From: Aliarcobacter skirrowii CCUG 10374
GTDB lineage: Bacteria > Campylobacterota > Campylobacteria > Campylobacterales > Arcobacteraceae
Direction: 5' to 3'
DNA length: 64,000 nt
NCBI RefSeq assembly: GCF_003544835.1
Contig: NZ_CP032099.1
Location: 1,612,001 to 1,676,000, forward strand
Made by a program: the position numbers and the translations under genes. Of the stretch, positions 8,646-51,124 are shown one piece after another. Within the stretch, counting starts at the first letter, position 1; every line of letters begins with the position of its first letter. The notes beneath the pieces are model-generated. The model was not told the origin of the DNA. It saw nothing but the letters and a program-made list of their open reading frames with translations, and searched no databases.

Positions 8646-9176
8646 TTAAGAGTTTTCTAAAATATCAAAAGCATTTATAGCAAATATCTTTTTATTTTCA
8701 ATATCAACTCTTTGAATAAAAGTTTCAAATATATGAGGAATTAAAAAGATTTTTGGAAGACCTTTTTCTACAAGTTGCGAATCTGTTTTAACTTCTAAAT
8801 AATCATTTAATGGAAATCTGTGAACATCACTTACAACACCTAATTTTAAGCTATCTTCATAAACTTCACATGATATTAAATCAAACCAAAAAAACTCGTT
8901 ATCTTTTAATTTACAAAACTCTTTAGTCTGCTCGATTGTAGTGTATAACTCTGTATTTGTAAGTTTTTTAGCACTTTCAATATCACTAAAACCTTCAAAA
9001 GATACAAGATCTCTATCTTTTAGATACTCTAAGATTGTAAGTTGGAAATTTTTATTTGTTAGAAAAGTTGAGCCTTTTTTAAATTGCTCAGGAAAATCAG
9101 AGTCAATAAAAAGTCTTAAATGACCTTTTAATCCTACTGCTTTTCCTAATTTTGCTACATAAACCTTATTATTCAT
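8646..9176 (-). CDS. rimM: Ribosome maturation factor RimM
   Basis: RimM helps mature the 30S head and binds ribosomal protein S19. The 176-residue protein starts VYVAKLGKAVGLKGHLRLF, the family's N-terminal barrel motif (GKIGKxxGLKG in many species), and has the C-terminal PRC-barrel segment with LGVVSDVHRFPLNDYLEVK and IFLIPHIFETFIQRVDIENKKI. It is the last gene of the ffh-rpsP-KH-rimM group; trmD and rplS, which usually follow, are absent and the next gene is convergent. Confidence 0.95.
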   Translation of the reverse strand: MNNKVYVAKLGKAVGLKGHLRLFIDSDFPEQFKKGSTFLTNKNFQLTILEYLKDRDLVSFEGFSDIESAKKLTNTELYTTIEQTKEFCKLKDNEFFWFDLISCEVYEDSLKLGVVSDVHRFPLNDYLEVKTDSQLVEKGLPKIFLIPHIFETFIQRVDIENKKIFAINAFDILENS

Positions 9177-9179
9177 AAA

Positions 9180-9419
9180 CTACTTTGCTACTACTTGGAT
9201 TTTATAAGATACTCCATCTTTAGCCTTGCAACCATTTGCAATTGTTTTTAGAGCATTTATCATATTTCCATTTTTACCAATTAATTTACCAATATCCAAA
9301 CTATTTACACTAAGAGTGATTAAAATAAAGTTCTCATCAACTCTCTCTTGAGAAATCTCAACATCTTCTGGAATTGAAACTATTAGTTTTGCATAGTTTT
9401 CTATAAAGTTTGTAATCAT
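9180..9419 (-). CDS. khpA: KH-domain RNA-binding protein (KhpA type)
   Basis: A 79-residue protein consisting of one KH domain. The GKLIGKNGNMINALKTI segment contains the GxxG RNA-binding loop (GKNG), followed by the helix typical of KhpA/YlqC. This small protein is regularly encoded between rpsP and rimM in bacteria, as it is here, and is thought to bind RNA in the cytoplasm with a partner KH/R3H protein. It is 3 bases from rimM and 6 from rpsP. Confidence 0.92.
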   Translation of the reverse strand: MITNFIENYAKLIVSIPEDVEISQERVDENFILITLSVNSLDIGKLIGKNGNMINALKTIANGCKAKDGVSYKIQVVAK

Positions 9420-9425
9420 TTGATA

Positions 9426-9653
9426 CTATTTTGAAGTTAATTTTTTAACTTTTTCTGATGGTTTAGCACCAACACTTAGCCAATAGTTATATCTCTCTTC
9501 ATCAATTTTGAAAACTTGTGGCTCAACTACTGGATTGTAGTAACCAATTGATTCAATCCATCCTGAATCTCTTCTTTTTCTTGAGTCTGTTACAACTATT
9601 CTATAAAATGGTTTTTTGTTTCTTCCCATTCTTGTTAATCTAATCACTGTCAT
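9426..9653 (-). CDS. rpsP: 30S ribosomal protein S16
   Basis: The 75-residue protein begins [20 protein letters not shown] and contains [20 protein letters not shown] and the PSEKVKKL end, all diagnostic of S16. The reading frame is open for another 66 bases upstream, but the ATG at 9653 is preferred because AAAAAAGGACAAAACA precedes it and because family members begin here. The upstream open stretch runs through the hairpin at 9676-9722. Confidence 0.97.
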
Positions 9654-9675
9654 TGTTTTGTCCTTTTTTAAATTT

Positions 9676-9722
9676 ATAGTGTTGAGCTTTAAACTCCAAA
9701 AAAGTTTATAGCTCAGCACTAT
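9676..9722 (-). promoter_or_regulatory. Long hairpin in the ffh-rpsP intergenic region
   Basis: Positions 9676-9695 and 9703-9722 are inverted copies that pair over 20 base pairs with one G-U pair and one mismatch, around a 7-base loop. No run of T follows on either strand, so it does not look like an intrinsic terminator. It fills most of the gap between the ffh stop and the rpsP ribosome binding site, where it could act as a processing site, an mRNA stabiliser or a leader control element. Confidence 0.7.
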
Positions 9723-9730
9723 TTTTAATT

Positions 9731-11083
9731 CTATCTTGGAATTTTTGGCATTCCATTTGGTCCCATTTGAGACAACATATTTGTAAAACCTTTCATTCCA
9801 CCTTTGTTTGAAAGCTGTTTTGCCATTTTTGAAGCATTTTTAAACTGTTTTAAAATCTTATTTACTTGAACTTCACTTAAACCAGCACCTGCTGAGATTC
9901 TTTTTTTTCTACTAGGATTTAGTAAATCTGGATTAACTCTTTCTTTTTGAGTCATTGAACTAATTAAAGCTTTAATTCTAACTATCTCTTTAGAGTTTTC
10001 AAAATCCATATCTTTTAAAGCTGGCATCATATTTGATAAGCCTGGAATCATTCCCATAATAGATTTTAAACTTCCAAGTTTACTTAACATTTGAAGCTGT
10101 TCTAAAAAGTCATTAAAGTTGAATTCACCTTTTTTTATCTTTCTACTTACCTCTTTTGCTTTTTTCTCATCTATTAAAGTAGCTGTTTTTTCAGCAAGCC
10201 CAGCAATATCCCCAAGTCCTAAAAGTCTTGAAACAACTCTATCTGGAATAAAAACTTCCAAATCTGGCATTTTTTCACCAATACCAATAAATCTTAATGG
10301 AACTTCTACTTGGTGAGCAATACTAAGTGCAACTCCACCTTTTGTATCACCATCATATTTTGATAATATAACTCCATCAATTCCAATTTTCTCTTTAAAT
10401 GTAGTTGCTGTTTTTGTTGCATCATGACCTGTCATAGAGTCTGCAACATAAAAAATCTCACTTGGATTTATAGCATCTTTAACATCTTTAAGCTCACTCA
10501 TAAGCTCATCATCAATAGCAAGTCTTCCAGCTGTATCTATTAAAACAACATCATAATGCTCTTTTTTTGCTTTCTCAACTGCAGCTTGTGCAATTTTTAT
10601 AGGATTTTTCTCATTATCATCAAAATAGATATCAACATCAATTTGTTTTGCAATCTGTTTTAGCTGCTCAACAGCTGCAAGTCTTTGTAAGTCACAAGCA
10701 GCTACTAAAACTTTTTTATTTCTTAGTTTTAAATAGTTTGCTAATTTTCCAGTTGTAGTAGTTTTACCACTTCCTTGAAGACCTGTCATTAAAATTTTTG
10801 TAGGAGGAGTTGAAGAGAATACAAAACCTTGATTTCCATTTGCTGTTAAAACTTTTTCAAGCTCTTCTTTTAGAACTTTTATGAAGTTATCTTGTCCAAT
10901 TCCAATATTTTTTACACCCAACTCAATATTAGCTAATAACTCTTTTGTCGTTTTATGGTGAACATCAGCTTTTAAAAATGCTTTTTTTAGCTCACTAATA
11001 GCACGACTTAATGATGCAACATCATCTTGATGTCTTATCTTATTTACAACACCTCGAATTGAGCTAGTTATTGAATCAAACAA
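9731..11083 (-). CDS. ffh: Signal recognition particle protein Ffh (SRP54)
   Basis: Ffh binds 4.5S RNA and signal sequences of nascent membrane proteins and delivers them to FtsY. The 450-residue protein has the N domain, the GTPase G domain with [15 protein letters not shown] (about 99-113), [15 protein letters not shown] and [12 protein letters not shown], and a methionine-rich M domain with [20 protein letters not shown] and the [15 protein letters not shown]-binding motif. The start codon is TTG, with GGAG 7 bases upstream. Confidence 0.98.
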
Positions 11084-11232: not shown

Positions 11233-11985
11233 TTAACTAAAATCATACACCTTGAACTCTTTTGGTTCTTTTGATTCGAAAACATAATCAAATATTTTTG
11301 TAACTTTTGAGTGAAGCAAAACCCTATTTACATTTGAAGCAGTTCTTCCATATAAACTATCTCCAATAATAGGAAATCCTAAAGCTGCTAAATGAACTCT
11401 AATTTGATGAGTTCTTCCACTCTCAATTACCACTTTAACTTTTGATTTATTTCCCTCTACAAGCATTGGAATAAGAGTTGTTTTTGCACTTTTTCCATGT
11501 TTGTCTATTTTTGATTTAGCCATTCCTCTATCTTTTGTAGTTAAAATTGGTTTATCAATTACTAACTCTTCGATAACTTTTCCCTCAACAATAGCAACAT
11601 ACTCTTTATAAACTCTATTTTGCGCAAACTCTTTAATAGCTCTTTTTTGAAACTCTTCATTCTTTGCAAAAAGCATAACTCCACTTGTCTCTTTATCTAG
11701 TCTATTTAAAAGTATTGCATTTTCAAATTTTCTTGATACCTCATCTGCTGTTAAAAAAGCTGGTTTATCAACTGCTAAAATATCTTTATCTTCAAATATA
11801 ACTTTTATTTTTGCAATATCTTTTACACTAAATTTAGTATCAACTCTTATCTCACCTCGTGCTATTAAAAGTTTTTTCCCAGAAACTGTTACTAAACCTT
11901 TATCAATAAGCTCTTTTGCCTTTGCATTTGAAATTCTCTCTTGCATTGCTAGAAGTTTATATGCTTTATCAAACTCTACTGCCAT
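11233..11985 (-). CDS. RluA-family pseudouridine synthase
   Basis: This 250-residue enzyme should isomerise uridine in rRNA or tRNA. An S4-like start (ISNAKAKELIDKGLVTVSGK) precedes the catalytic domain. The active-site stretch is ILLNRLDKETSGVMLFAKN; the catalytic Asp of the RLD motif is present, but Asn replaces the His usual before Arg. GRTHQIRVHLAALGFPIIGDSLYG near the end is the second family signature. It overlaps waaA by 10 bases, as part of a minus-strand run from purE. Which RNA position it modifies cannot be told from sequence. Confidence 0.92.
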   Translation of the reverse strand: MAVEFDKAYKLLAMQERISNAKAKELIDKGLVTVSGKKLLIARGEIRVDTKFSVKDIAKIKVIFEDKDILAVDKPAFLTADEVSRKFENAILLNRLDKETSGVMLFAKNEEFQKRAIKEFAQNRVYKEYVAIVEGKVIEELVIDKPILTTKDRGMAKSKIDKHGKSAKTTLIPMLVEGNKSKVKVVIESGRTHQIRVHLAALGFPIIGDSLYGRTASNVNRVLLHSKVTKIFDYVFESKEPKEFKVYDFS

Positions 11986-40526: not shown

Positions 40527-40627
40527 CCAGAGGTTTTATTTGATTTTGCTGAAAAAGATGTAAAATATCTACAAATTTGTAAATATTTTACATTTATATA
40601 CATTTTTAAGAAGATTTTAAGTAACTA

Positions 40628-51030: not shown

Positions 51031-51047
51031 CTTCTCTCCTAAAATAA

Positions 51048-51124
51048 AAAAAGTTAAATACCATTTAAATATGATATTTAACTTTTTCTATTATTTAGAT
51101 TTATGAGAGTAAAACTCTCATAAA
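51048..51124 (-). terminator. Hairpins after frdB, probable terminator
   Basis: Two stems lie between frdB and the first dynamin gene. TTTATGAGAGT/ACTCTCATAAA (51100-51124) comes first on the minus strand and has no T run. AAAAAGTTAAATA/TATTTAACTTTTT (51048-51087) follows and its arm runs into TTTTTTTATTTT, the form of an intrinsic terminator. Together they probably end the frdCAB transcript. Confidence 0.65.

Follow-up and report, generated by a model that had tools for sequence, protein, structure and literature searches.

A conserved hairpin in the ffh-rpsP gap of the Arcobacteraceae very probably serves the control or processing of rpsP mRNA

The hairpin between ffh and rpsP of Aliarcobacter skirrowii CCUG 10374 is, judged from sequence, very probably a functional RNA element of the ffh-rpsP operon, because its stem is present in 99 of the 100 ffh-rpsP gaps examined in the Arcobacteraceae and because its base pairs show modest covariation. 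We regard a role in controlling or processing the message for ribosomal protein S16 as very probable, by a mechanism that is predicted only.

The hairpin and its genes in A. skirrowii

The window, that is, the whole stretch of 64,000 nucleotides that was analysed, carries the hairpin and the surrounding genes on the minus strand in the following order:

11233-11985 (-): pseudouridine synthase gene, then a 149-bp gap upstream of ffh
9731-11083 (-): ffh, signal recognition particle (SRP) protein, with Pfam SRP54 domains; TAG stop at 9733-9731
9676-9722 (-): hairpin of the ffh-rpsP gap, 20 pairs with C·A and A·A mismatches and the loop UUU
9716 (-): C of the C·A mismatch, opposite 9682
9709 (-): 5' base of the central mismatch (opposite 9689), which is A·A here and G·G in most of the aligned relatives
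9689 (-): 3' base of the central mismatch, partner of 9709
9661-9665 (-): AAGGA, the Shine-Dalgarno sequence of rpsP, not part of the hairpin
9426-9653 (-): rpsP, ribosomal protein S16 (Pfam PF00886)
9180-9419 (-): khpA-like KH-domain gene, next after rpsP (Pfam PF13083)
8646-9176 (-): rimM, maturation factor of 16S rRNA and final gene of the run (Pfam PF01782 and ORF list)

The ffh stop codon is followed by 8 nt, the hairpin, a further 22 nt and the rpsP ATG. An earlier note had placed a hairpin between the two genes, and the inverted repeat indeed lies exactly at 9676-9722 and gives 20 pairs in the transcribed RNA, arranged on the minus strand as 6 bp, the C·A mismatch, 6 bp, the A·A mismatch and 8 bp below the loop (9700-9698). 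The transcribed strand folds with -20.6 kcal/mol, compared with a mean of -6.34 (sd 2.11) for shuffled sequences (z -6.76), and none of 200 shuffles was as stable. The plus-strand copy consists of 13 bp, a U·U mismatch and 6 bp and folds with -23.6 kcal/mol. It is this copy that fits the description in the note of a stem with one G-U pair and one mismatch, whereas in the transcribed RNA the G-U pair turns into C·A. Similarly, the reported lack of a T run applies to the transcribed strand but not to the opposite strand, on which TATTTTTAA comes after the hairpin.

An open GTG frame at 9651-9719 (-) crosses the hairpin in frame with rpsP, and gene callers may lengthen rpsP at its start by 22 codons through this frame. 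Of the 27 hairpins that score at least 15 in 400 kb of this genome, 17 are located within predicted ORFs and 10 in intergenic regions, three of the latter between co-directional genes; the ffh-rpsP hairpin was classed as lying inside an ORF in this count due to the GTG frame running into rpsP. Four hairpins in the window reach the same score, and the ffh-rpsP hairpin ranks top with 18.2. Other strong intergenic hairpins between co-directional genes of this genome are found at window positions 40556-40595 and 51043-51092 and at 174378-174423 of contig C1. Rfam 15 yielded no match within the window at the gathering score, and over 13 loci of relatives it returned two tRNAs and nothing else.

Conservation in the Arcobacteraceae

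A search of 104 Arcobacteraceae genomes recovered S16 in 102, and all 102 loci were examined. In 100 of these, ffh lies directly upstream of rpsP; the other two (L104 and L110) start at or beside a contig end, so that the gene order is not assessable. The gaps between the two genes are 66-122 nt long, with a single outlier of 253 nt. An ungapped stem score of at least 14 was reached in 99/100 gaps, compared with 2/500 dinucleotide shuffles, and the sole gap below the threshold (L108) holds a shorter hairpin. The length of the helix in the 99 gaps is 20-22 positions in 63, 23-24 in seven and 25-28 in 29, with a mode of 21. In the commonest form, 13 positions are followed by a symmetric mismatch of two purines, G·G or, in A. 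skirrowii, A·A, and then by 7 bp. The hairpin starts at a median of 11 nt past the ffh stop and ends at a median of 23 nt before the ATG (range 17-198). The extreme distance belongs to the outlier gap, L101 from a g7 genome, where other DNA intervenes; between hairpin and rpsP, this gap (bases 447-700 on the rpsP strand) has a long self-complementary stretch.

A common stem could be aligned for 75 of the 100 loci, corresponding to 65 distinct sequences (alignment A1). In this alignment, 97.8% of the cells are paired and 13 of the 20 pairs are invariant, and RNAalifold finds the identical stem with 19 pairs. Double-sided changes affect 4/20 pairs and amount to 25 cells, compared with 8.5 in shuffles, none of 500 reaching 25; the number of doubly changed pairs by itself is unexceptional (4 against 3.1 in shuffles, 156/500). 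The covariation check in Arcobacter relatives that the earlier note had asked for therefore turned out positive but modest, the latter because the stem sequence is so conserved. Of the 65 distinct hairpins, 59 have G·G at the central mismatch and six have A·A, and none has a standard pair there; among these hairpins the 9716/9682 pair is broken in A. skirrowii alone. Wobbles in the aligned stems, read on the transcribed strand, comprise 145 G·U compared with 18 A·C, which places the selection on the transcribed RNA. The loops, 3 to 21 nt long, are not conserved in the alignment. In the remaining 25 loci, which belong to eight genera, the helix is retained with different sequences, and a few lack the central mismatch.

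We rejected a promoter that overlaps the ffh stop and has the hairpin at the 5' end of its transcript, as no positioned -10 box precedes the hairpin in 95 loci. Mimicry of the pre-16S processing stem was rejected as well, the words shared with the hairpin being unexceptional in all 20 Arcobacteraceae genomes compared; the nearest case is A. skirrowii itself, with 8 nt, which 31/300 shuffles equalled. The best pre-16S processing stem was identified in 29/29 genomes and is weak in some other families. In A. skirrowii, it spans 25 positions (L303 flanks) and is A+U-rich, and 11 of the 20 sampled Arcobacteraceae genomes have the same core, ATCTTTATAAAC.

Leaders of rpsP in other families of the order

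Across the order, 256 of 258 genomes, a number that includes the Arcobacteraceae (family f1), were S16-positive, and 90 loci from other families were examined. The C-terminal part of ffh lies upstream of rpsP in 78 of the 90, and 69 of these gaps, with lengths of 45-300 nt, were scored. Strong helices are present in 11/11 gaps of family f3, 8/11 of f5, 4/5 of f6, 1/1 of f8, 6/6 of f9, 4/6 of f12, 1/6 of f15, 7/7 of f17 and 2/2 of f21, and are absent from the scored gaps of f2 (0/1), f11 (0/1), f13 (0/1), f14 (0/8) and f19 (0/3). In 30 of these 44 hairpins the helix measures 19-22 positions, within a range of 18-28 and with one of 38. By eye, the sequences are mostly unrelated, family f5 being the exception.

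In 16 of 19 f5 loci (not in L199, L216 and L225), rpsP is preceded by a hairpin with a G·G mismatch, which we call element X. The mismatch is G·G in 16/16, with about 11-14 positions below it and mostly 6-7 bp above it, and five pairs show double changes among 15 distinct sequences. No ffh is seen upstream in six f5 loci, and X is present in five of them (not in L199), or in four of the five assessable ones if L200, which has too little upstream DNA, is excluded. When the stems of the two families are anchored at the mismatch, 17.96 of 30 positions agree, compared with 11.57 after permutation (10/2000 permutations as high), with the pattern A-G-U..U-G-A...G-U / A-G...U-C-A..A-C-U. In addition, when model R1 was used to search the 16 f5 leaders, the sense strand scored best in 15/15 loci matched. 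Based on this strand preference and the permutation test, the Arcobacteraceae hairpin and element X are probably related. The covariance-model scores were rejected as proof of homology. Run on other families without filters, R1 gave 27 matches with E no higher than 10, of which 26 lie on rpsP leader hairpins and the strongest scores 29 bits (E 1.9e-4), and with default filters it gave a single match over the 90 loci (E 0.99), which is not a leader of this kind. An R1 score by itself proves little, since control hairpins of other families (L234, L219 and L280) reach about 20 bits and the Arcobacteraceae stem L094, which has no central mismatch, scores 27.5 and 27.0 bits on its two strands. No relation to the f3 leaders is claimed, as the antisense strand scored better in three of the four loci matched. 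In four loci of the f5 genus g68 (L212, L217, L220 and L224), a second hairpin with a UCCUC-like loop, seen by eye in the folds, lies behind X, and this loop could pair with AGGA of the Shine-Dalgarno site according to the predicted structures.

Element Y, a leader that is conserved and appears to be structured, lies directly before rpsP and contains CCTCTGTGAT, in many cases together with AAGAGGCA. It was found at L168:3386-3564 and 29 other loci, which comprise 22 Sulfurimonas-like records and loci from f8 (1), f15 (3) and f19 (4), and 14 of the 30 were aligned (alignment A3). One example examined had no match in Rfam. On sequence grounds, Y is a candidate S16 leader. Two loci of families other than f5 that have no ffh upstream (L272 and L275) carry Y, and four more (L206, L260, L277 and L278) are without a strong stem (scores 7.7-9.9). 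In other Sulfurimonas-like records we observed an element Z, in which the hairpin of roughly 20 bp is followed by a second, small hairpin that hardly varies (AAGTTGAAATATGACTT and close variants) beside the Shine-Dalgarno site (L150:3335-3468 and 20 other loci, alignment A4).

Gaps were also compared for an extended -10 motif, using the 100 Arcobacteraceae loci, the 78 loci of other families that have ffh upstream and, of the 52 named records L139-L190, the 46 that showed rpsP; the named records L111-L138, which are chiefly Arcobacteraceae, were excluded, as were loci without ffh, and of gaps longer than 420 nt the last 420 were used. These promoter calls are motif matches, and related genomes do not count as independent. 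The motif occurs in 3/160 hairpin gaps (L040, L266 and L271), in 32/39 gaps with leader X or Y and in 3/25 with neither hairpin nor leader; outside the best stem, the counts are 2/160, 31/39 and 1/25. Among the named, mostly Sulfurimonas-like records, none of 24 hairpin gaps has the motif compared with 19 of 22 leader-Y gaps. The motif is present in 9/11 f5 gaps and in 22/28 element Y loci with ffh upstream or in named records. As it is also rare in gaps with neither hairpin nor leader, its absence is not special to hairpins.

Proposed function and comparison with known systems

We tentatively propose that the hairpin is a processing site in double-stranded RNA, with RNase III as the most likely enzyme, and would separate rpsP from the ffh read-through mRNA. 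Conserved and acting in cis within the ffh-rpsP-khpA-rimM transcript, it would act on an rpsP gene that is apparently transcribed through read-through from ffh: a helix of about 21 positions would form between the two reading frames, where RNase III is the most likely protein to recognise it as double-stranded RNA. The cut would split the ffh message from the rpsP-khpA-rimM message, each with its own lifetime, and in this way S16 and RimM levels could differ from that of the SRP protein. Here, we infer co-transcription, cleavage, the identity of the enzyme and the effect on expression. Processing is favoured because the helix length is conserved with free loops, the Shine-Dalgarno site is accessible and the promoter motif is rare in hairpin gaps. 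Apparent ffh read-through, helix length, free loops and an open start site fit a double-strand processing site, most simply one for RNase III. The Shine-Dalgarno region of the 100 family loci has a mean probability of being unpaired of 0.85 (lowest 0.58) and is wholly unpaired in the minimum-energy fold of 71. RNase III needs about two helical turns, a length reached by the 20-28 positions in the 99 Arcobacteraceae gaps, where the wobbles favour the sense strand.

The A. skirrowii genome has an RNase III gene (C1:488752-489396, TIGR02191 over cut-off). Its presence is uninformative, as such a gene was found in 32 of 33 genomes examined, some of them hairpin-less. Genome G106, which has neither the gene nor the hairpin, was rejected as a natural experiment on RNase III loss, since its sister G331 carries the gene and an assembly gap in G106 is therefore likely. 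Several observations count against processing. The stem sequence in the 75 aligned loci is far more conserved than a bare double strand requires; all eight f14 gaps are hairpin-less; the promoter motif is mostly missing also from gaps with neither hairpin nor leader X or Y; and the f5 hairpin of like geometry, in a family in which most gaps have the promoter motif, is kept with rpsP in loci without ffh. The reading of the hairpin as a pure ffh-rpsP separator is weakened by this last point.

In a second reading, possible but less probable, a protein, most likely S16, binds the helix at the G·G (A·A) mismatch of the transcribed strand and lowers the translation or stability of rpsP-khpA-rimM. 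Such leader control is favoured by the strand-specific sequence conservation and by the probably related f5 hairpin, which has similar geometry, positions like those of the Arcobacteraceae stem and a sense-strand R1 preference and is found even where no ffh is seen upstream. The position before rpsP in nearly every family gap, the conserved structure with its modest covariation, the restricted mismatch type and a published S16 leader candidate from Flavobacteria (PMC7247131) are in line with it as well. On the other hand, no expression platform, be it a hidden Shine-Dalgarno site or an attenuator, was found in the family loci, the site being free and no U-run following, and the distance to the ATG varies from 17 to 198 nt. 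Moreover, some genera of the family swap the stem sequence or drop the mismatch yet keep the helix. In a crude test for mimicry of 16S rRNA, the longest word common to the hairpin and the genome's own 16S rRNA (1518 nt) has 8 nt, and 108/200 shuffles gave one equally long. Leader control by S16 and processing are compatible and not mutually exclusive.

It is rather improbable that the helix is a mere stability barrier, shielding the rpsP 5' end or the ffh 3' end from exonucleases with no specific cleavage. A helix would suffice for this, which fits the sequence turnover between families, and the f5 hairpin would lie a few nucleotides past the start site expected from the promoter motif; however, an A+U-rich stem (median GC 0.26 in the 99 hairpins) with a conserved mismatch is poor for maximal stability. 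An intrinsic terminator, either of ffh or of antisense transcription, is very unlikely. In the sense direction it is largely refuted, none of the 99 hairpins being followed by a U-run. On the opposite strand, at least five T occur among the next 8 nt in 59/99 hairpins compared with a background of 30%, but the sense strand pairs better, as seen from the wobbles, which is the reverse of what an antisense terminator would need. Short stems are common in AT-rich DNA, but a chance inverted repeat or a mobile repeat (REP or MITE) is refuted by the near-universal presence of the stem, so rare in shuffles, and by model R1, which under stricter filters and with matches on both strands found one place per genome in each of the 75 genomes matched among 104.

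For the order as a whole, one might speculate, though we regard it as unlikely, that the ffh-rpsP gap serves one regulatory function through interchangeable RNA devices. The helix of about 21 positions with a symmetric purine mismatch would be old, being shared by the Arcobacteraceae and f5, and either S16 or RNase III would recognise it in competition with pre-rRNA, letting the output of S16 and RimM track ribosome assembly. Where a lineage acquired an rpsP promoter of its own, it would have kept the helix or exchanged it for X and Y, which would be new S16 leaders.

The rpsP-rimM operon encodes one protein for 30S assembly and one for 16S maturation, and a conserved RNA element heading it would show how the levels of S16 and RimM are set apart from that of the SRP protein in a group to which food-borne and gastric pathogens belong. 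The hairpin also provides a clean test case for whether the cell reads a helix alone or a specific mismatch.

Searches of open-licence papers gave no description of this hairpin. E. coli RNase III sites are long imperfect helices, and the rnc leader is among them. Sites at pnp, metY and aceE (PMC5371410) resemble the hairpin in their intergenic or leader mRNA location, but were inferred from RNA-seq of an rnc mutant, whereas our prediction comes from sequence alone; rpsP and ffh are absent from the main text of that paper. An alphaproteobacterial ffh motif is likewise a single bulged, covarying hairpin tied to ffh, but it lies before ffh instead of between ffh and rpsP and belongs to another class (PMC2704228). 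In Flavobacteria, which are of another phylum, the S16 leader candidate is a structured RNA immediately before rpsP, in most cases together with rimM, and is likened here by position (PMC7247131). A parallel in gene order is B. subtilis, in which the ffh-rpsP gap contains an RNase Y cleavage site and the promoter P2 (PMC10100781). At this same gene junction, cleavage and an internal promoter yield rpsP messages apart from ffh; there, however, the enzyme is RNase Y and the accessible part of the paper mentions no long helix, whereas in the Arcobacteraceae a helix of about 21 positions is conserved.
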